DNA of 50,805 bases. It comes from Janibacter terrae NBRC 107853 (GTDB lineage Bacteria > Actinomycetota > Actinomycetes > Actinomycetales > Dermatophilaceae). The stretch covers positions 1 through 50,805 of the forward strand of contig NZ_BCUV01000008.1 of NCBI RefSeq assembly GCF_001591405.1, in the 5' to 3' direction. The notes below the pieces were generated by a model that was not told the DNA's origin, did not search any database, and worked only from the letters and a program-made list of their open reading frames with translations. This document shows, one piece after another, positions 11,433-33,300 of the stretch; the first letter of the stretch is position 1, and the number at the start of each line of letters is the position of its first letter. The translations under genes and the position numbers were made by a program.

Positions 11433-11623
11433 GCTCGGGACCACTCGTCGGAGACCGCGGCCACGTATTCGTGCACCGCGGAGACCGGGATGCGACGCAG
11501 TCGACCGATCTTCACGCTGGGCAGTCGGTTCATCCGGATCAGGTCATAGACCGCGGACTTTCCGACGTTCAGCACCTCGGCCGCTTCGGCCACCGTCATC
11601 AACAGCTTCTCTGTCATGGTCAT
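11429..11623 (-). CDS. xis: Excisionase-like helix-turn-helix protein
   Basis: Small basic protein of 64 aa with an AlpA/MerR-like DNA-binding fold: MTVAEAAEVLNVGKSAVYDL is the helix-turn-helix, followed by RMNRLPSVKIGRLRRIP, the wing of excisionases. Its start overlaps the rep stop (ATGA) and its own stop overlaps the int start (ATGA), so rep-xis-int form one translationally coupled operon. An internal ATG at 11617, better spaced from AAGGG, is an alternative start. It is expected to bend attachment-site DNA and steer int toward excision. Confidence 0.85.
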   Translation of the reverse strand: MTMTEKLLMTVAEAAEVLNVGKSAVYDLIRMNRLPSVKIGRLRRIPVSAVHEYVAAVSDEWSRA

Positions 11624-12481
11624 CCCTTTGTCTCTAGTCCACTTCGGGTCACGCGTCGTTGGGCTTTCCACAGGTCGTACTCGCGGGTGCGGGCGGCGAC
11701 GGCCAGGGCCATTGCTTCTTCGGTGTGGTCGCGCCAGCCGGTGCCGATGTAGGTCCAGGCGCCGACGACCTGGGTGGTTTCGTCTGCGTCCTCGGCGAGC
11801 AGGCGTGCTTCGAGGTCGCGGGTGTCGATCGGGGTGCCGGTGCGGCGGGACTCGGCGGCGAGTTCTTGCCAGCGGGACCTTGCGCGGCGAAGGGCGCCGA
11901 GGGTGATGGAGTAGCGGCGGGACTTGGTGCCGAAGTGGCCGCGAAAGCCCAGGCAGCGCACCCACTGGCTCATGCGTTGGTAGTCGTGGTCGACGTGGTG
12001 GAAGGTTGCGGCTCGCTGCGCCATCTTGCGGCATTCCCGTTTGAGGGCGAGGAGGTGGGGGCGTCCTTGGCCGTGGCCGTGCAGGCTCGAGGAGTCCTTG
12101 GTGGAGTACTTCGCGAGGTAGCCGGCGACCTGGTCGGGGGTCAGCGGTCCGGTCGGGTCGTCGGTGCGGGACCCGGCGCGTACGGTGCGGGCGTCGACCT
12201 GGGCGCCGAAGGCCAGCACGCGTGGACTGTCGTCGTGGTCGACGGGTTCGGCGAGGGCGGTCACGGTGGGCACGACGTCGCGGACCAGGCCAGCCAGGGC
12301 GTGGCCGGTCAGCGAGGGGGGCGCGGGGGAGCCGGTGCCGCCGGCGGCGGGTCCATCCAGGCGGATCAGGGCGTGGAAGTGCACCAGTCCGCGGCTTTGG
12401 TACTCGGCGACCTTGGCGTACTGGATGCAGGCGTGCTCGTTCAGGCGTGTGTCGGGCACGGCCAGGTGGCGGGCGATGCCG
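11620..12481 (-). pseudogene. RepSA-like replication initiator, 3' part (split by IS3)
   Basis: This is the C-terminal ~286 residues of the rep gene. Deleting the IS3 element and one GCCG duplicate fuses it in frame with the part at 15268-15957, giving FTIALRRG-IARHLAVPDT and about 515 aa in all. VHFHALIRLDG is the HUH metal motif of rolling-circle initiators, and VAGYLAKYSTKDS holds the candidate catalytic tyrosine. It belongs to the pSAM2 RepSA type, which starts rolling-circle replication of the excised circle. It is probably inactive in this state. Confidence 0.85.
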
Positions 12482-12534
12482 TGAAGCGCCCCAGGTTTGA
12501 TGCCGCTCCTGTTTGAGTCCAGGAGGATGAGCAC

Positions 12535-12846
12535 ATGCCGAAGAAGATTGATCCCGAGTTGCGGGCTCGAGCTGTGAGGTTGGTGATCGAGCACCGGCAG
12601 GAGTACCCGTCGATGACCGAGGCGATGGTCGCGGTGTCGAAGCAGCTGAACGTTTCGCGGGAGTCGGTACGGCGCTGGGTCGCCCAGGCGGACATCGACG
12701 CGGGCCGTCGGGAGGGGACCACGACGCAGGAGTCTGAGGAGATCAAGAAGTTGAGGGCCGAGAACCGGCGGTTGCGCGAGGACGTGGCCGTGCTGAAAGC
12801 GGCGACGACTTTCTTCGCGGGGGAACTCGACCCCCGCAACCGCTGA
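12535..12846 (+). CDS. IS3-family transposase OrfA
   Basis: The 103-aa OrfA has an N-terminal helix-turn-helix (MTEAMVAVSKQLNVSRESV, then RRWVAQADID) that binds the IS ends and a C-terminal leucine-zipper-like coiled coil (EEIKKLRAENRRLREDVAVL). OrfB lies in the -1 frame directly after, as expected for IS3 elements that make OrfAB by programmed -1 frameshifting. Confidence 0.9.
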   Translation: MPKKIDPELRARAVRLVIEHRQEYPSMTEAMVAVSKQLNVSRESVRRWVAQADIDAGRREGTTTQESEEIKKLRAENRRLREDVAVLKAATTFFAGELDPRNR

Positions 12847-13613
12847 TCATGGGATTCATCGACACCATGAGAAGCCAGGGCCACGCGGTCGAGTCGATCT
12901 GCCGGGTGCTGCGCGAGCAGGGCTGTCAGGTTGCCGCGCGGACCTACCGCAGCTGGAAGAGCGTCGGGCGGGCCGTAGCCACACGGACCGTCACCGACGC
13001 CCAGGTCATGGACGCGGTGCGCGATATCGCTTGGACCACCGACCAGCCGACCAGCACGGCCGCAGCAAGTTGACTCCGGAGGGGCTGTACGGGCGCCGGA
13101 AGATGAGCGCCTACATACGTCGCACCGTCATCGCCGACGCCTCGTTCGGGTCGGTGGATCGGGCGATGCGCACCCTTGGTCTGGTCGGCGTGCGGCGTGA
13201 CAAAGGCGTTCGGACCACGATCCCGGCCAAGGACGGCATCCGGGCCGGTGACCTGCTCGATCGTGACTTCACCGCCGAGGCACCCAACCGGGTGTGGGTC
13301 ACCGACTTCACGTATGTCAGGACGTGGGCGGGCTTCACCTATGTCGCGTTCATCGTCGATGTCTACGCCCAACGGATCGTGGCCTGGCACGCTGCGACGA
13401 CCAAGCAGACCGATCTGGTGATGGTCCCGCTGCGGATGGCGATTTGGCAGCGCGGCCGTGAGGGACGCCTGGCGGATCCCGGCCAGTTGATCCACCACTC
13501 GGATGCCGGGTCGCAATACACGAGTCTGCGGCTGACGGAACATCTTGCCCTTGAGCAGATCCGCCCCTCGATCGGGTCGGTCGGCGATGCCTACGACTGC
13601 GAGCATCGTGACT

Positions 13614-13790
13614 GCGCCACCACCTGGGGTCTGACCCTTGCTTATGACCGGCCCTGCGGGTGCCCTCGCGTTGACGTGTCGGCCCCGGGTGGTGGCGTTC
13701 ACCAGGCTGCTGGCCGGGTGGGCAGTGACCTGATAGGAGCCTGACTCGACCAGGGCCTCATCGCAGTCCTGTCCGCCCACTCCGGCCAGC
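13614..13790 (+). ncRNA. Candidate IS110 bridge RNA (target loop then donor loop)
   Basis: Two long stem-loops. The first has CGCCACCACCTGGGG (13615-13629) pairing with CCCCGGGTGGTGGCG (13683-13697), 15 bp with one G-U. Its loop holds GCTTATGAC (13640-13648), matching target left GCCTACGAC with two wobble-tolerated differences, and CGCGTTG (13667-13673), complementary to target right CAACGCG. The second has GCTGGCCGG plus GTGGGC (13709-13723) pairing with GCCCAC plus CCGGCCAGC (13775-13790, one bulge). Its loop holds ATAGGAGC (13733-13740), identical to the element's right end 15002-15009, and TCGCAGTC (13761-13768), the complement of GACTGCGA at the left junction. This is the target-loop/donor-loop order of known bridge RNAs. 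Confidence 0.78.
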
Positions 13791-13840
13791 TGAGCCATGG
13801 ACAGCCCGCCCGGAAAGTGCGAGAGAGGATCCACAGCCCG

Positions 13841-14986
13841 ATGCCCAGCATGCAGCTTCGGCGTGACGATGTCATCGTCGGCGTCGACACCCACAAGGAC
13901 AACCACGTAGCGGTCGCGATCGACGGCTTTGGCGGCCGGCTCGGCGACATCGTCGTGCCCACCACCATCGCCGGGTTTGAGGAGCTCCTCGCCTTCTGTC
14001 TGGCCTTCGTCGGGTCGGCCGGTCGGCTGATCGGGTTCGGCGTCGAGGGCACCGGCTCCTACGGGGTCGGCTTGGCGCGCTACCTGCGCAACCACGGTCA
14101 CGACGTCCACGAGATCGCCCGCCCAGCACGGGCCGCGGAACGTCGACTCGCAGGGAAGAACGACACCATCGATGCCGAGCACGCTGCACGCCAGCTCCTG
14201 GCTGGGCACGGGCTGTCGACACCCAAGACCGCCGACGGCGCGGTCGAAACGATCAGGCTGGTCAAGATCGCCTACGACGGTGCCGTTCAAGCGCGGACAA
14301 CCGCGATGATCACGCTCAAGGCGACCCTCGCGACCGGGAGCGAGGCGTTGCGGGCGGAGCTGGAGACGCTCACCGACCACAAGCTGATCCTCGCGTGCGC
14401 GGCGCTGGAGGGTCCGACTCCACTGCCGCCCGTGCGCCGTGGCGCACCTGCCGTTGTTGTGCCGGGCGACCCGGATGTGGCGATGCGACACGTGCTGTCC
14501 TCGATGGCGAAGCGTTGGCTGGCGCTGCACGAGGAGGCCAAGGCTCACGCCGCATCAATGAAGGCACTCACTGCGGCCGCTGCGCCCCAGCTCGTCGAGG
14601 CCGTCGGCGTCGGCTACGACACTGCGGCACAGATGCTGATCACCGCCGGCGACAACGCCAACCGGATCAAGTCCGAGGCAGCGTTTGCCAAGATGTGTGG
14701 CGCGTGCCCGATCCCGGCTGGATCCGGCAAGACCAACAGCCGGCACCGTCTGTACCGCGGCGGGAACCGGCAGGCCAACGCCGCGCTGTATCGCGTGGTC
14801 ATCGTGCGCATGCGCTGGCATCAGCCGACGATCGACTACGTGGCCCGTCGCACCGCCGAGGGCATGTCGAAGCGGGAGATCATCCGGTGCCTGAAGCGGT
14901 ACCTCGCTCGCGAGCTCTTCCGCCTGCTGCCGGCCCCGGACGCCATCGCCAAGCCCGTTAATGGAGAGCTCGAAATCGCGGCCTGA
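13841..14986 (+). CDS. IS110-family transposase (DEDD recombinase)
   Basis: About 381 aa. The N-terminal DEDD RuvC-like domain shows VIVGVDTHKDNHVAVAID (first Asp), FGVEGTGSYGVGLARYL (Glu) and LAGKNDTIDAEHAARQL (Asp-Asp). The C-terminal Tnp_20 domain includes GVGYDTAAQMLITAGDN and a serine-containing stretch (GACPIPAGSGKTNSRHRLYR) expected to supply the catalytic serine. It works with the bridge RNA to join donor and target. The start is uncertain: ATG 13841 follows GAGAGAGG, GTG 13817 would add eight residues. It appears intact. Confidence 0.9.
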   Translation: MPSMQLRRDDVIVGVDTHKDNHVAVAIDGFGGRLGDIVVPTTIAGFEELLAFCLAFVGSAGRLIGFGVEGTGSYGVGLARYLRNHGHDVHEIARPARAAERRLAGKNDTIDAEHAARQLLAGHGLSTPKTADGAVETIRLVKIAYDGAVQARTTAMITLKATLATGSEALRAELETLTDHKLILACAALEGPTPLPPVRRGAPAVVVPGDPDVAMRHVLSSMAKRWLALHEEAKAHAASMKALTAAAAPQLVEAVGVGYDTAAQMLITAGDNANRIKSEAAFAKMCGACPIPAGSGKTNSRHRLYRGGNRQANAALYRVVIVRMRWHQPTIDYVARRTAEGMSKREIIRCLKRYLARELFRLLPAPDAIAKPVNGELEIAA

Positions 14987-15267
14987 TCGACTTGACGATC
15001 TATAGGAGCATCAACGCGCTGATGGAGACGATCAACGGCTTGTACAAGGCCGAGTGCATCCGCACCACCGTCTTCCACGACGGGCCGTTCAAGAGCATCG
15101 CGGACGTCGAGTACGCCACCGCCGGCTGGGTCGACTGGTACAACGCCCGACGGCTCCACAGCTCGCTGGGCCACATCCCGCCCATCGAGTACGAGCACGC
15201 CCACTACGCTGCCCTCAACCCCGAGCCGCAGCCCGTATGAGAGCGGCAGAGAACCTGGGGCGCTTCA

Positions 15268-15957
15268 GCCGCGGCGCAGGGCGATGGTGAATCGTCGCCA
15301 CAGCTCGGGGGCGTGCCACTGCCACATCACCGCGGAGGCCGTGTCGTGGCACTCGTTGCACAGCGGTGACCCGGTGACCTCGTCCTGTTCGTCGTGGGTG
15401 CGGGTGCACCAGGTGGGTTGGCCGTGGGGGCAGCGGGTGCGGGCCTGGGGTCGTCGGGGTCGGCAGGGGCGGCCGTGGCGGTGGCCGTGGACGGGCCCGA
15501 AGGAGGGGGCGGTGAGGGTGACGAAGAGCAGCGGGTTGTCGCGGACCTGGTCGGGGACGGTCTTGCCGCCGTTGATGCCGGCGTGGATCAGGGCGTAGGT
15601 GTCGCGGGCGTAGACCCGGGAGCAGGACGGGCAGATCGAGGCGCGGCGGTTGCCGCAGGGGCGGTGCAGGACCCCGAAGGGCAGGTCCCGGGTGTCGAAG
15701 GTGGAGATGACTTGCCCGGTGGTGGTGTCGACGGTGAGGGAGGATCCGGCCAGTCGGACGGGGTGGGCGCAGTTGCCGGTGGCGGCCAGGGCGTCGAAGA
15801 AGGCGTCCATCGTGCCGTCGCGCATGCGGGAGGCGATCAGCTGCGCGGACTGGGGGCGGGCCAGGGCCGGGAGGTCGAGTGGGGTGTCTTCGCCGTAGCC
15901 GGGGAAGTGATCCCCCCGGGCCAGGTCGGGGGAGGGTGACGCGGTGGTGGTGTGCAC
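15268..15957 (-). pseudogene. RepSA-like replication initiator, 5' part (split by IS3)
   Basis: N-terminal 230 residues of rep from GTG 15957, with GGAGGG about 5 nt upstream. It shows the zinc-finger-like RPCGNRRASICPSCSRVYA and a second cysteine cluster toward the end (PLCNECHD), typical of RepSA proteins of actinomycete integrative elements. Without the IS the frame runs directly into the 3' part at 12477. As it stands it ends in a TGA within the IS3 end. Confidence 0.85.
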
Positions 15958-16197: not shown

Positions 16198-17617
16198 AAT
16201 TGAGTCCCCGATAGTGGTGTAGCGCGGTCGCCGACATGGTCCCGGTTGTGGACGTGTGTGCGGCCACCGCGTGATCCTTCGAGCGAACCTTCCACAGCAC
16301 TCTCGAATGGAGTCATCACGATGACCGCACCACACATTGTCGACCCTGTCGGCCTGCTGGGTGAAGCCCTGTCCGAAGCCTCCCCGGACTTGATGCGTTC
16401 CCTGCTGCAGACCATGATCAACGCGTTGCTGTCCGCGGACGCCGATGCCGTCGTCGGAGCCGAGTACGGCCGACCCAGCGCGACTCGCACGGCGCAGCGC
16501 AATGGCTACCGCCACCGCGACCTGGACACCCGCGTCGGGACGGTCGACGTCGCGATCCCGAAGCTGCGGAGCGGGACCTACTGCCCCGAGTGGCTCCTCG
16601 AGCGCCGCAAGCGCGCGGAGTCCGCGCTGATCACGGTCGTCGCGGACTGCTACCTCGCTGGCGTGTCGACCCGCCGCATGGACAAGCTCGTCAAGACCCT
16701 GGGGATCGACTCGCTGAGCAAGTCCCAGGTGTCGCGGATGGCCGCTGATCTGGACCAGATCGTCGAGGAGTTTCGCCACCGGCCGCTGGCCGATGCCGGG
16801 CCGTTCACGTTCGTGTCCGCGGACGCGTTGACGATGAAGGTCCGCGAGGGCGGACGCGTGATCAACGCCGTCGCGTTGATTGCCGTCGGTGTCAACGCTG
16901 ACGGGCACCGCGAGGTCCTGGGCCTGCGCGTGGCCACGTCCGAGACAGGTCCGGCGTGGAATGAGTTCTTCGCCGACCTGAGCGCCCGCGGACTGAGCGG
17001 GGTGCGGCTGGTCACCTCCGACGCCCACAAGGGCTTGGTCGAGGCCATCGCGGCGAACCTGCCCGGCGCGTCGTGGCAACGCTGCCGCACGCACTACGCC
17101 GCGAACCTGATGTCCGTGACCCCCAAGAGCATGTGGCCGGCCGTGAAGGCGATGTTGCACTCGGTGTACGACCAACCCGACAAGGACGCCGTCCAGGCGC
17201 AGTTCGAGCGGCTGCTGGAGTACGTCGACGGCAAGCTGCCCGATGTCCACGACCACCTCGACGCAGCGCGAGCGGACATCCTGGCGTTCACCGCCTTCCC
17301 CAAGGACGTGTGGACCCAGATCTGGTCGAACAACCCCGCCGAACGCCTCAACCGCGAGATCCGACGCCGCACCGACTCCGTGGGCATCTTCCCCAACCGG
17401 GCCGCGATCGTGCGCCTGGTCGGCGCCGTGCTGGCCGAGCAGACCGACGAATGGGCCGAAGGACGGCGCTACCTCGGCCTCGACGTCCTGGCCCGCTGCC
17501 GCATCACCATCGTCACCGACATCAACCCCGAGATCGGAGACCACACCCTGCCAGCACTGACCGCCTAACCCCTAGCCAAGGAGAACACGCCGCTACACCA
17601 CCACCCGGGACTTGACC
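16198..17617 (+). mobile_element. IS256-family insertion sequence
   Basis: The ends match as imperfect inverted repeats of about 28 bp (both end in GGTGTAGCG inward, AGTCCC outward). An 8-bp target duplication GACCCCCA lies at 16190-16197 and 17618-17625, and the two neighbouring bases also match. At 1,420 bp with a single gene it is normal for the family. It separates rep from the cargo genes and may have cut off upstream regulatory DNA of rep. Confidence 0.85.
16321..17568 (+). CDS. IS256-family (mutator-type) transposase
   Basis: The 415-aa DDE transposase begins at ATG 16321. Family features are RNGYRHRDLDTRVGTVDVAI, VSTRRMDKLVKTLGI, the catalytic Asp of FVSADALTMKV, the second Asp of LVTSDAHKGLVEAI, WQRCRTHYAANLM and the Glu of SNNPAERLNREIRRR. 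The reading frame is intact with no frameshift, so this IS is probably active. Confidence 0.94.
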   Translation: MTAPHIVDPVGLLGEALSEASPDLMRSLLQTMINALLSADADAVVGAEYGRPSATRTAQRNGYRHRDLDTRVGTVDVAIPKLRSGTYCPEWLLERRKRAESALITVVADCYLAGVSTRRMDKLVKTLGIDSLSKSQVSRMAADLDQIVEEFRHRPLADAGPFTFVSADALTMKVREGGRVINAVALIAVGVNADGHREVLGLRVATSETGPAWNEFFADLSARGLSGVRLVTSDAHKGLVEAIAANLPGASWQRCRTHYAANLMSVTPKSMWPAVKAMLHSVYDQPDKDAVQAQFERLLEYVDGKLPDVHDHLDAARADILAFTAFPKDVWTQIWSNNPAERLNREIRRRTDSVGIFPNRAAIVRLVGAVLAEQTDEWAEGRRYLGLDVLARCRITIVTDINPEIGDHTLPALTA

Positions 17618-30314: not shown

Positions 30315-33300
30315 ACGTTGCGACGGTACTGCCCGCCGACCTCGAAGAAGGCGTCGGTCACCTGCTGCAGGCTGCACACGCGCGCGGCGTCCATCAGGAC
30401 GTCGAAGACGTTGGCATCGGTGGTCGCCGCCTCCTTGAGGCGGGCGATCGCCTGCTCGGCCTCCTCGCGGTGCGTCTCCTGGTACGCGCGTACGCGCTGC
30501 AGCTGCGAGACCTTCTCGGACTCGGTGGCGCGGGCGAGCTCGATCTCGTCGGCCTCCCCCTTCGACCCGTCCTCGCGGAGGAAGGTGTTGACGCCGATGA
30601 TCGGCAGCGTGCCGTCGTGCTTGCGGTGCTCGTAGAGCATCGACTCGTCCTGGATCCTGCCCCGCTGGTACCCGGTCTCCATGGCGCCGAGGACGCCACC
30701 GCGGTCGCTGATCCGGTCGAACTCGACGAGCACGGCCTCCTCGACGAGGTCGGTGAGCTCGTCCATGAGGTAGCTGCCCTGGAGGGGGTTCTCGTTGAAG
30801 GAGACGCCCCACTCGCGGCTGATGATCAGCTGGATCGCGAGCGCCCGGCGCACCGACTCCGTCGACGGGGTGGTGACGGCCTCGTCGTAGGCGTTGGTGT
30901 GCAGGCTGTTGGCGTTGTCGTAGAGCGCGTTGAGCGCCTGCAGCGTCGTGCGGATGTCGTTGAAGTCCATCTCCTGCGCGTGCAGCGACCGGCCGGAGGT
31001 CTGGATGTGGTACTTCAGCTTCTGGCTGCGCTCGTTGGCCCCGTACTTCTCCTTCATCGCCACGGCCCAGATGCGGCGGGCGACCCGGCCGAGGACCGCG
31101 TACTCCGGGTCCATGCCGGAGGAGAAGAAGAAGGACAGGTTGGGCGCGAAGTCGTTGATGTCCATGCCGCGCGCGAGGTAGGTCTCGACGTAGGTGAACC
31201 CGTTCGCGAGGGTGAAGGCGAGCTGGCTGATGGGGTTCGCCCCGGCCTCGGCGATGTGGTACCCGGAGATCGAGACCGAGTAGAAGTTGCGCACTTGCTG
31301 CTCGATGAACCACTCCTGGATGTCGGCCATCATCCGCAGCGAGAACTCGGTGGAGAAGAGGCAGGTGTTCTGCCCCTGGTCCTCCTTGAGGATGTCCGCC
31401 TGGACGGTGCCGCGGACGTTGTGCAGCGCGTGGGCGCGCAGCTCCTCGGCCTCGGCGGCGGAGGGCTCGCGGCCCTCGCGCTCGCGGAAGGCGTCGACCT
31501 GCTGGTCGATCGCGGTGTTGAGGAAGAAGGCGAGGACCGTCGGCGCGGGGCCGTTGATGGTCATCGACACGCTCGTCGAGGGGGAGAGCAGGTCGAAGCC
31601 CGAATACAGCGCCTTCATGTCCTCGAGGGTCGCGACGGAGACGCCGGAGGTGCCGACCTTGCCGTAGATGTCCGGGCGCTCGCCGGGGTCGCGACCGTAG
31701 AGGGTCACGGAGTCGAAGGCAGTCGACAGGCGCGTGGCGGGCTGCCCCTCGGAGAGCAGCTTGAACCGGCGGTTGGTGCGGAAGGGGTCGCCCTCGCCGG
31801 CGAACATGCGCGCCGGGTCCTCGTTGTCCCGCTTGAACGGGAAGACGCCGGCGGTGAAGGGGAAGCGGCCGGGGAGGTTCTCCCGGCGCCAGAAGCTCAC
31901 GAGCTCGCCGTGGTCGGTGGTCCGGGGGAGCGCGACGCGGGAGATCTTGTTGCCCGACAGCGACTCCTTGAAAAGGCGTGTGCGCACAGGCTCTTTTCGT
32001 CCCCGGATCGTCACGACCTGCTCGTCGCCCGAGTAGGACTCGACGACGCTCGGCCAGGCCTCGATCTGCTCGCCGATCTCCGCGGGGAGGGTCGTGCGGG
32101 CGGCATCGAGCAGCTCGTCGACGCCGTGACCGTCCTTGCCGGCCGCGGTCAGCTCGTCGTCGACGAGCGCGAGCCGCTGCACGCGACGCGCGGTCTCGGC
32201 GAGCCGCGCGGTCTCGGCGTGGTACCCACGCACGGTCTCGGCGATCTCGGCGAGGTAGCGCACCCTGGTGGCGGGCACGAGCTGGTCGAAGCGGGTGGAG
32301 TACTTCGTCGCGACCGGTGCGAGCTGGCCCTCCTCGACGTGCAGCCCCTTGTCGGTGAGCAGGTCCCGGACGTGGTGGTACAGCGCGGTGACGCCGTCGT
32401 CGTTGAAGGTCGCGGCCGAGGTGCCGAAGACCGGCATGTCCTCGGGACGCTGGCCGAAGGCCTCGCGGTTGCGCACGAGCTGGCGCGCGACGTCACGCAG
32501 TGCGTCGGCCGCGCCACGGCGCTCGAACTTGTTGATCGCGACCACCTCGGCGAAGTCGAGCATGTCGATCTTCTCCAGCTGGCTGGCCGCGCCGAACTCC
32601 GGCGTCATGACGTACATCGGCACGTCGACGAAGGGGATGATCGCGGCGTCGCCCTGCCCGATGCCGGGCGTCTCCACGATGACGAGGTCGTAGCCGGCCG
32701 CCTTGATGATGTCGATGACGGTCTGCAGCGAGTCGGGGACCTCGCGGTCGCCGCGGGTGGCGAGCGAGCGGAAGAACACGGGGGAGGCGCCGGACGTGGA
32801 CTCGCCGAGGGAGTTCATCCGGATCCGGTCGCCGAGGAGGGCACCGCCGCCCTTGCGGCGGGTCGGGTCGACCGCGATGACGGCGATGCGCAGCTTGTCC
32901 TGCTGGTCGACGCGGAAGCGGCGGACGAGCTCGTCGGTGAGCGAGGACTTGCCCGAGCCGCCGGTGCCGGTGAGACCGAGGACGGGGGCGGAGGATCGAC
33001 GTGCCGCCTCCGCGATGCCGCCGAGGAAGGCCTCGTCGAGGTGGCCGAGCTCGGCGCCGGAGATGGCGCGGGCGACGGCGGCGCGCTCGCCGGCGAGGAC
33101 CGGCTCGAGGGCGACGGGGCCCTCCTCCCACACGTCGGTGTCGCAGTCCCGGATGAGCGTGTTGATCATGCCGGGCAGGCCGAGCCGCTGGCCGTCCTCG
33201 GGGGAGAAGATGCGCACACCCGCCTCGCGCAACCGGTCGATCTCCTCGGGGACGATGACGCCGCCACCGCCGCCGAAGACCTTGACGTGACCCGCGCCCT

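Follow-up and report, generated by a model that had tools for sequence, protein, structure and literature searches.

A bridge RNA-type IS110 lineage that probably uses codons beside the presumed catalytic glutamate of IS3-family transposases as its insertion site

Some IS110-family elements are already known as predators of other mobile DNA, e.g. IS4321 and IS5075, which insert into the inverted repeats of Tn21-family transposons, and members of the IS1111 family target attC sites. Bridge RNAs represent a new class of programmable recombination guide, and their natural targets, and the reasons for these targets, are poorly mapped.

As far as IS621 is covered in the accessible parts of two reports (Durrant 2024, Hiraizumi 2024), the element described here shares with it the DEDD and Transposase_20 domains, an RNA (presumed here) in the left end, a target loop followed by a donor loop, left guides followed by right guides, pairing with the bottom and the top strand, handshake-type bases and a promoter-like junction. 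With ISEc21 and the other IS110/IS1111 seekRNA elements (Siddiquee 2024, PMC11187229, accessible part) it shares that each IS or close group has its own target, set by an RNA from the non-coding region; natural reprogramming, and a non-coding region located upstream as in the IS110 type, are likewise shared with the ISEc21 group.

Here we describe the anatomy, the junctions and the conservation of such an element from Janibacter terrae and its relatives, and the fit between guides and targets. Comparison of these sequences makes it very probable that a bridge-RNA IS110 lineage uses the catalytic-Glu site of many IS3 elements, and that a sister clade does the same at IS481 elements. We also lean towards a broader reading, in which all members of the lineage would be hyperparasites that use RNA guides against DDE transposons. 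Their bridge RNAs would spell codons near the catalytic Glu of D(35)E enzymes, and they would have moved from one transposase family to another (IS3, IS481 and, with locus L011, at least one more rve type) by rewriting guides at a homologous position, each insertion inactivating a rival.

Anatomy of the element and of the IS3 gene that it splits

The window, i.e. the whole stretch of 50,805 nucleotides from Janibacter terrae NBRC 107853 that was analysed, carries a 1415-bp IS110 element (Table 1). A previous sequence-only reading had assigned 13589..15016 to an IS110 bridge RNA and its insertion site; the presence of the IS110 element was borne out, while its ends were corrected to 13598-15012 because 13597 is the last position of the left target and 15013 the first of the right target. 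The recombinase gene, which has an alternative GTG start at 13817, lies between a non-coding left end (LE) and a short right end (RE). Its product has DEDD (RuvC-like; PF01548, 5.3e-18) and Transposase_20 (PF02371, 4.8e-16) domains and scores 153 bits with NF033542 (cut-off 140). A recombinase profile based on five relatives (alignment A1, of which L036 and L037, plasmid, were picked for an annotated IS3 transposase beside IS110) matched the solved structures of IS621 (8wt6) and ISCro4 (9t56). In the profile alignment the D, E and D-D motifs line up with those of IS621, and the Ser in AGSG aligns with chain residue 243 of 8wt6; allowing for a two-residue offset, this Ser would correspond to S241 of IS621.

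Table 1. Features of the nested IS3 and IS110 elements (window coordinates)
Feature	Position	Strand	Evidence or remark
IS3-family element carrying IS110, inverted repeats TGAAGCGCCCCAGGTT...	12480..15267	+	2788-bp unit, twice in genome, 100% identity
IS3 OrfA	12535..12846	+	Pfam HTH_Tnp_1; NCBIfam IS3 below NCBIfam cut-off
IS3 OrfB 5' part, first two catalytic Asp, ends ...SVGDAYD	13031..13597	+	Pfam rve 2.1e-20; NF033516 up to 313
Left target GCCTACGAC (codons A-Y-D)	13589..13597	+	Pairs with LTG
IS110 element	13598..15012	+	Ends from copies elsewhere (L003, L006, L039, L042) and IS3 profile ends
Left end (LE), non-coding, 243 nt, presumed bridge RNA	13598..13840	+	Conserved, 51 distinct left ends
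Target-binding loop	13616..13697	+	Stem arms 13616-13635 / 13678-13697; 19 pairs; covariation
Bridge RNA covariance-model match	13622..13782	+	141.6 bits, by construction (copy L001 in model)
Left target guide (LTG) GCTTATGAC	13640..13648	+	9/9 with own target; covaries across relatives
Right target guide (RTG) CGCGTTG	13667..13673	+	Complement of CAACGCG; covaries in diverse set, not in IS3 set
Donor-binding loop	13710..13790	+	Stem arms 13710-13729 / 13771-13790; 18 pairs; weaker comparative support
Left donor guide (LDG) ATAGGAGC	13733..13740	+	Equals RE 15002-15009; covaries with RE
Right donor guide (RDG) TCGCAGTC	13761..13768	+	5/5 pairs with own LE start, 51/51 left ends
IS110 recombinase, 381 aa	13841..14986	+	PF01548, PF02371, NF033542 above cut-offs
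Right end (RE), 26 nt	14987..15012	+	-35-like TTGACG and ATAGGAGCATC
IS3 OrfB 3' part, begins N-A-L-M-E	15013..15240	+	NF033516 from 314; Pfam rve_3

The element splits an IS3-family OrfB gene between the codons D and N of GDAYDNA (left flank ...PSIGSVGDAYD, right flank NALMETINGLYK), four codons upstream of the Glu with which D(35)E is completed; this identity of the target had escaped the sequence-only reading. In an intact IS3 protein encoded in the same genome (L003, 470-1405) the Glu of NALAE lies 35 residues from the second Asp, i.e. D(35)E, and judged from this protein the split point lies 31 residues after the second Asp. We take the Glu of N-A-x-x-E in IS3 proteins to be the catalytic Glu of the DDE family, and the fifth residue of NALME is presumed to be this residue; the identity is supported because the Glu of ERF in IS481 proteins aligns to position 318 of the IS3 profile, the Glu of N-A-x-x-E.

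The first approximately 60 residues of the OrfB protein are in another frame than the rest (13031-13597), and this IS3 copy may therefore already have been frameshifted. The IS3::IS110 unit, which by eye has a GCCG repeat on each side in the window, breaks a gene for a RepSA (pSAM2-type) replication initiator (11620-15957; PF20199 pieces 2-186 and 189-437), giving three levels of nesting with IS110 inside IS3 inside an integrative element. An intact-looking Mutator/IS256-type transposase gene (PF00872, 1.6e-132) is located nearby, at 16246-17568.

All four guides proposed in the sequence-only reading are present where it had placed them, in the order left then right and target loop then donor loop (LTG, RTG, LDG, RDG), and they match the element's own junctions. 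Specifically, the LTG pairs with the left target at nine of nine positions, two of them as G-U, and the RTG is complementary to C plus AACGCG (13597 and 15013-15018). The LDG is identical to the right end at 15002-15009 and the RDG is complementary to GACTGCGA across the left junction (13595-13602). The RDG fits the integrated junction and not the donor circle, since its 3' part pairs with GAC of the target. Over 20,000 randomisations the single guides recurred at frequencies of 0.084 (LTG), 0.014 (RTG), 0.0013 (LDG) and 0.0027 (RDG); hence the LTG match by itself is not significant. None of the 20,000 randomised left ends (first-order Markov) had all four together.

Conservation of the RNA and of the guide-target fit

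Relatives were collected by a profile-based scan of genome contigs, with recombinases 46-100% identical and 80 loci among the matches listed; their order follows resemblance to the window protein without regard to flank, and the choice of queries was not flank-blind. They provide 51 distinct left ends, from which guides were read using conserved anchors; copies of the window locus (L002, L005) and duplicate left ends (L006, L039, L040, L041, L085) were excluded.

Folding of a single sequence, 234 nt of the left end, gives modest support, with a z of -1.95 and 8 of 200 shuffles equally good; the convincing structural evidence is comparative. The two stem-loops read from the left end stand, while their stems, described as 15 bp, have 19 (target loop) and 18 (donor loop) pairs with bulges. 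The alignment of relatives shows that the target-loop stem covaries: two-sided changes were seen in 53 cells vs 18.6 after shuffling (none of 500 shuffles as high), 93.1% of the cells are paired, and the values are low when the arms are slid. Moreover, native arms are more stable than arms swapped between elements (-30.5 vs -19.7 kcal/mol for the target loop, -23.5 vs -20.1 kcal/mol for the donor loop), and the native pair of arms falls within the best tenth in 38 of 51 rows for the target loop and in 22 of 51 for the donor loop. RNAalifold did not predict the expected outer stem of the donor loop and paired the donor-loop region otherwise. For the donor loop, therefore, the evidence is weaker than for the target-loop stem and its outer stem is less certain, although the native arms still perform better than swapped ones.

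A covariance model was built from 38 of the 51 left ends (alignment A2), and the search suggested in the sequence-only reading found it, at E up to 1, in 51 of the 60 sources examined, the matches of the window, L006 and L039 being so by construction as they share a left end with a model sequence. The nine sources with no model match are L009, L015, L019, L021, L038, L083, L084, L100 and L102, of which at least L084 is cut at a contig end. Rfam gave no match up to E = 1 in 13300-15300.

Guides that match the flank of each copy were the other expectation set out beforehand, and the LTG fits its own flank better than the flanks of other copies. Among cluster representatives it scores 7.78 of 9 against its own target vs 6.78 when permuted (n=32, P at most 5e-5), and the donor guides fit as well (LDG 7.80 vs 7.66, n=30; RDG 5.00 vs 4.38, n=32; P at most 5e-5 for both), with the RDG matching its own LE at five of five positions in 51/51. 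For the RTG, covariation is absent from the IS3 set (5.87 with own targets, 5.95 with permuted ones, P = 0.84), where the test has little power because the target is almost constant. In a set with diverse targets (n=21) the LTG scores 8.0 vs 4.95 and the RTG 5.67 vs 3.83; 13 of the 21 are hand-picked loci away from the exact IS3 site, several of them chosen after their left-guide matches had been seen, so that the left-guide figure is biased upward, while the right guide played no part in the choice. TGGGA left guides are found at Trp sites in L056 and L098, and Tyr-type guides at Trp-type sites in L041, L010, L092 and L053. Of the 51 left ends, 50 have an RDG that also pairs with GAC of the target. 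This would be expected of a guide that takes up the target strand once exchange has occurred, as the accessible part of PMC11208158 describes for the handshake guides of IS621.

An automated guide-target scan covered 63 rows, of which 18 had no target loop by pattern; a 9/9 left guide at a TG-type junction was found in 6 of the 45 scored loci (null P 0 to 0.015), all with unrelated targets (L051 and L052 from cyanobacteria, L055, L099, L114 and L117). The scan is insensitive, since it picked wrong places for the near-identical L006, L039 and L041. By eye, L114 lies after KGKVWQY in an integrase-core-like gene.

We also considered whether U at third codon positions of the LTG serves wobble decoding (TAC/TAT, GAC/GAT) and rejected the idea, as U in the guide does not significantly exceed T in the target (32 cluster representatives; P = 0.29 for the Asp codon, P = 0.38 for the Tyr codon). 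The guide base opposite the third position of the Asn codon is G throughout.

Insertion sites across the lineage and alternative explanations

IS3 sites were scored by searching profiles of both IS3 protein halves in the listed loci. Among the matches listed, which are from other genomes, 56 of 80 loci have the exact D/N site (slash, insertion point), i.e. the IS3 match ends at D on the left or starts at N on the right, and in 43 listed loci this junction is present on both sides; the other 24 of the 80 listed lie away from the exact IS3 site. The hosts of the listed relatives are Actinomycetota and some Pseudomonadota. No D/N site was found in 22 more distant IS110 control loci, which come from a DNA search of relatives, are 36-52% identical and thus overlap the low end of the test set (46-100%), and include L018 and L019 (IS481 clade) and L015 (inside the 74-row clade described below).

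A quick tree was built from 107 rows, excluding seven rows and all those shorter than 250 aa; in it, a clade of 74 rows (SH-aLRT 99) has all 62 IS3-site rows and 12 others. Its sister clade (SH-aLRT 99) has nine rows representing eight distinct loci, L018 and L108 having the same sequence. The insertion point of these elements is immediately upstream of the Glu codon in genes for IS481-type transposases, [NQ]G[KE][VI]/ER. The NCBIfam scan covered seven distinct sister-clade loci; on the left side the match to the IS481 profile runs as far as 232 in L106, L108, L109, L111, L113 and L118, and on the right side it begins at 233 in L106, L112 and L118. For L109 the junction lies 35 residues after the Asp and the Glu is next, and L019, with a right flank only, reads ERFHRTL. 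L011 is located in a further rve transposase (Pfam rve and rve_3) at SND/NPFSE, a site which its left guide GTAACGAC and its right guide (reverse complement CAACCCG) fit, both target guides being rewritten, and where by eye the D-to-E spacing is also 35.

Two close relatives from one Parafrankia genome, L046 and L047, have different targets and look like a natural reprogramming pair: the right guide is CAATCC in L046 for the target AATCC and CAACGC in L047 for AATGC, while the left guide of L046 matches at only 6/9. Distant (42%) relatives are also present on viral contigs (L119-L122), with IS3-like matches upstream, not at the exact junction, in L120 and L122.

Within the Janibacter genome, an identical 2788-bp IS3::IS110 block is present at a second place (G000:C7), where the surroundings of the unit differ. 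A third copy (contig C11, 99%) interrupts another IS3 gene, and does so at the same boundary between codons, GSCFD/NAMAEALNSLFK. Near-identical copies occupy still other IS3 genes (L007, L041, L042, L043), and two (L006 and L039) have surroundings that gave no IS3 match, with GAC on the left and AACGCG or AGCGCA on the right; their left guides match these non-IS3 sites poorly.

These last two insertions fit an explanation that we regard as possible, if somewhat doubtful, namely that the element uses a generic site (about GAC/AACGC) and that insertions into host genes are lost while those into dispensable IS3 elements persist. The preference for IS3 would then, to the same tentative degree, be mostly selection after the fact rather than adapted target choice. 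The genome also has 11 unoccupied TWYGAYAAYGC sites, two in IS3 genes and nine elsewhere, and the left guide matches both IS3 sites at 6/9 and the others at 6-8/9; one of the latter, in a methylmalonyl-CoA mutase gene (TACGACAACGC, 30912-30922, minus strand), is matched by the guides at 7/9 (left) and 6/7 (right). Several non-IS3 sites are thus better matches for the left guide than the two in IS3 genes, and the guide alone does not account for the presence of all three copies in IS3 genes; the preference probably owes something to the elimination of harmful insertions or to IS3 genes being dispensable. However, the left guides vary with the form of the IS3 motif (the n=32 permutation, with L056 and L098 at Trp sites), and the sister clade is tuned to the homologous IS481 site, and on these two grounds we argue that the guide is also adapted.

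It is unlikely that the IS110 element rarely inserts and is instead copied inside IS3, the common junction reflecting descent. The 2788-bp unit does occur twice at 100% identity, the window copy lying between its GCCG repeats, and a search of the genome found no uninterrupted copy of the carrier IS3. Yet near-identical elements are found in unlike IS3 genes (the window, L003, L007, L041, L042 and L043), L006 and L039 are outside IS3, and among the matches listed 43 of 52 right-flank IS3 fragments are distinct at 90% over 40 aa, which points to mostly separate insertions.

Finally, it is very improbable that the recombinase protein rather than the RNA sets the target and that guide matches are incidental: most members of one protein clade do share one target, but same-clade elements with other targets have matching left guides (the six 9/9 loci of the scan), RTG and LTG both fit in the 21-element test, and experiments on IS621 and ISEc21, in the accessible parts of PMC11208160 and PMC11187229, show programming by RNA.

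Proposed mechanism and comparison with known systems

The left targets end with GA[CT] and the LE starts with TG in 51/51, and the RE ends with TC in 48/48, followed by AA of the target. With GA[CT]/TG on the left and TC/AA on the right, donor and target have no more than one base in common where the strands are exchanged, and a CT core present in both is absent from these junctions. Upstream of the RE-LE junction, TTG[AC][CA] is present in the RE of 44/48, and the best -10-like hexamer in the LE is located across the circle junction at a spacing of 17 (33), 18 (10) or 19 (1) bases, the spacing being the best of 16-19 and the hexamers weak. The RE-LE junction thus fits a junction promoter.

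On the model of IS621, the element would excise as a circle with the expected junction RE-TC/TG-LE (...GGAGCATC/TGCGAG...), and the promoter formed there would transcribe the bridge RNA. The target loop would pair with both strands of TAYGAY/AAYGC, which is the IS3 codon block [YF]D/NA before the catalytic Glu, and the donor loop with RE and LE. The recombinase would then exchange strands at the D/N boundary, and each insertion would separate an IS3 transposase from its catalytic Glu. Expression of the RNA, its pairing in the cell, transposition and loss of IS3 activity are thus expected by analogy.

A guide directed at a catalytic motif has many targets in each genome and follows a sequence that the victim cannot easily change; if this reading is true, the IS110 would act as a natural brake on elements of the IS3 and IS481 types. 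Many natural guide-target pairs are available in the lineage, among them cases of a switch from one transposase family to another, and its core differs from the CT shared in IS621; all of these are useful for testing which positions must match.

In the part of the PMC literature that was searched, including the accessible parts of PMC11208160, PMC11208158, PMC11187229, PMC12500396 and PMC2516522, we found no IS110 element described as having the catalytic codons of a transposase as its target. The target of IS621 is a REP element and its donor and target have a CT core, according to the accessible parts of PMC11208160 and PMC11208158, whereas the target here is a transposase coding motif and at most one base is shared. 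Likewise, the accessible part of PMC11187229 names no target in transposase catalytic codons for the ISEc21/seekRNA group, in contrast to the lineage described here. The known transposon predator of the IS110 superfamily attacks the inverted repeats of one transposon family; here the site is a conserved coding motif across IS3 elements. The mechanism is thus already known from IS621, and it is the target class, together with a core of at most one shared base, that seems to be the new part.
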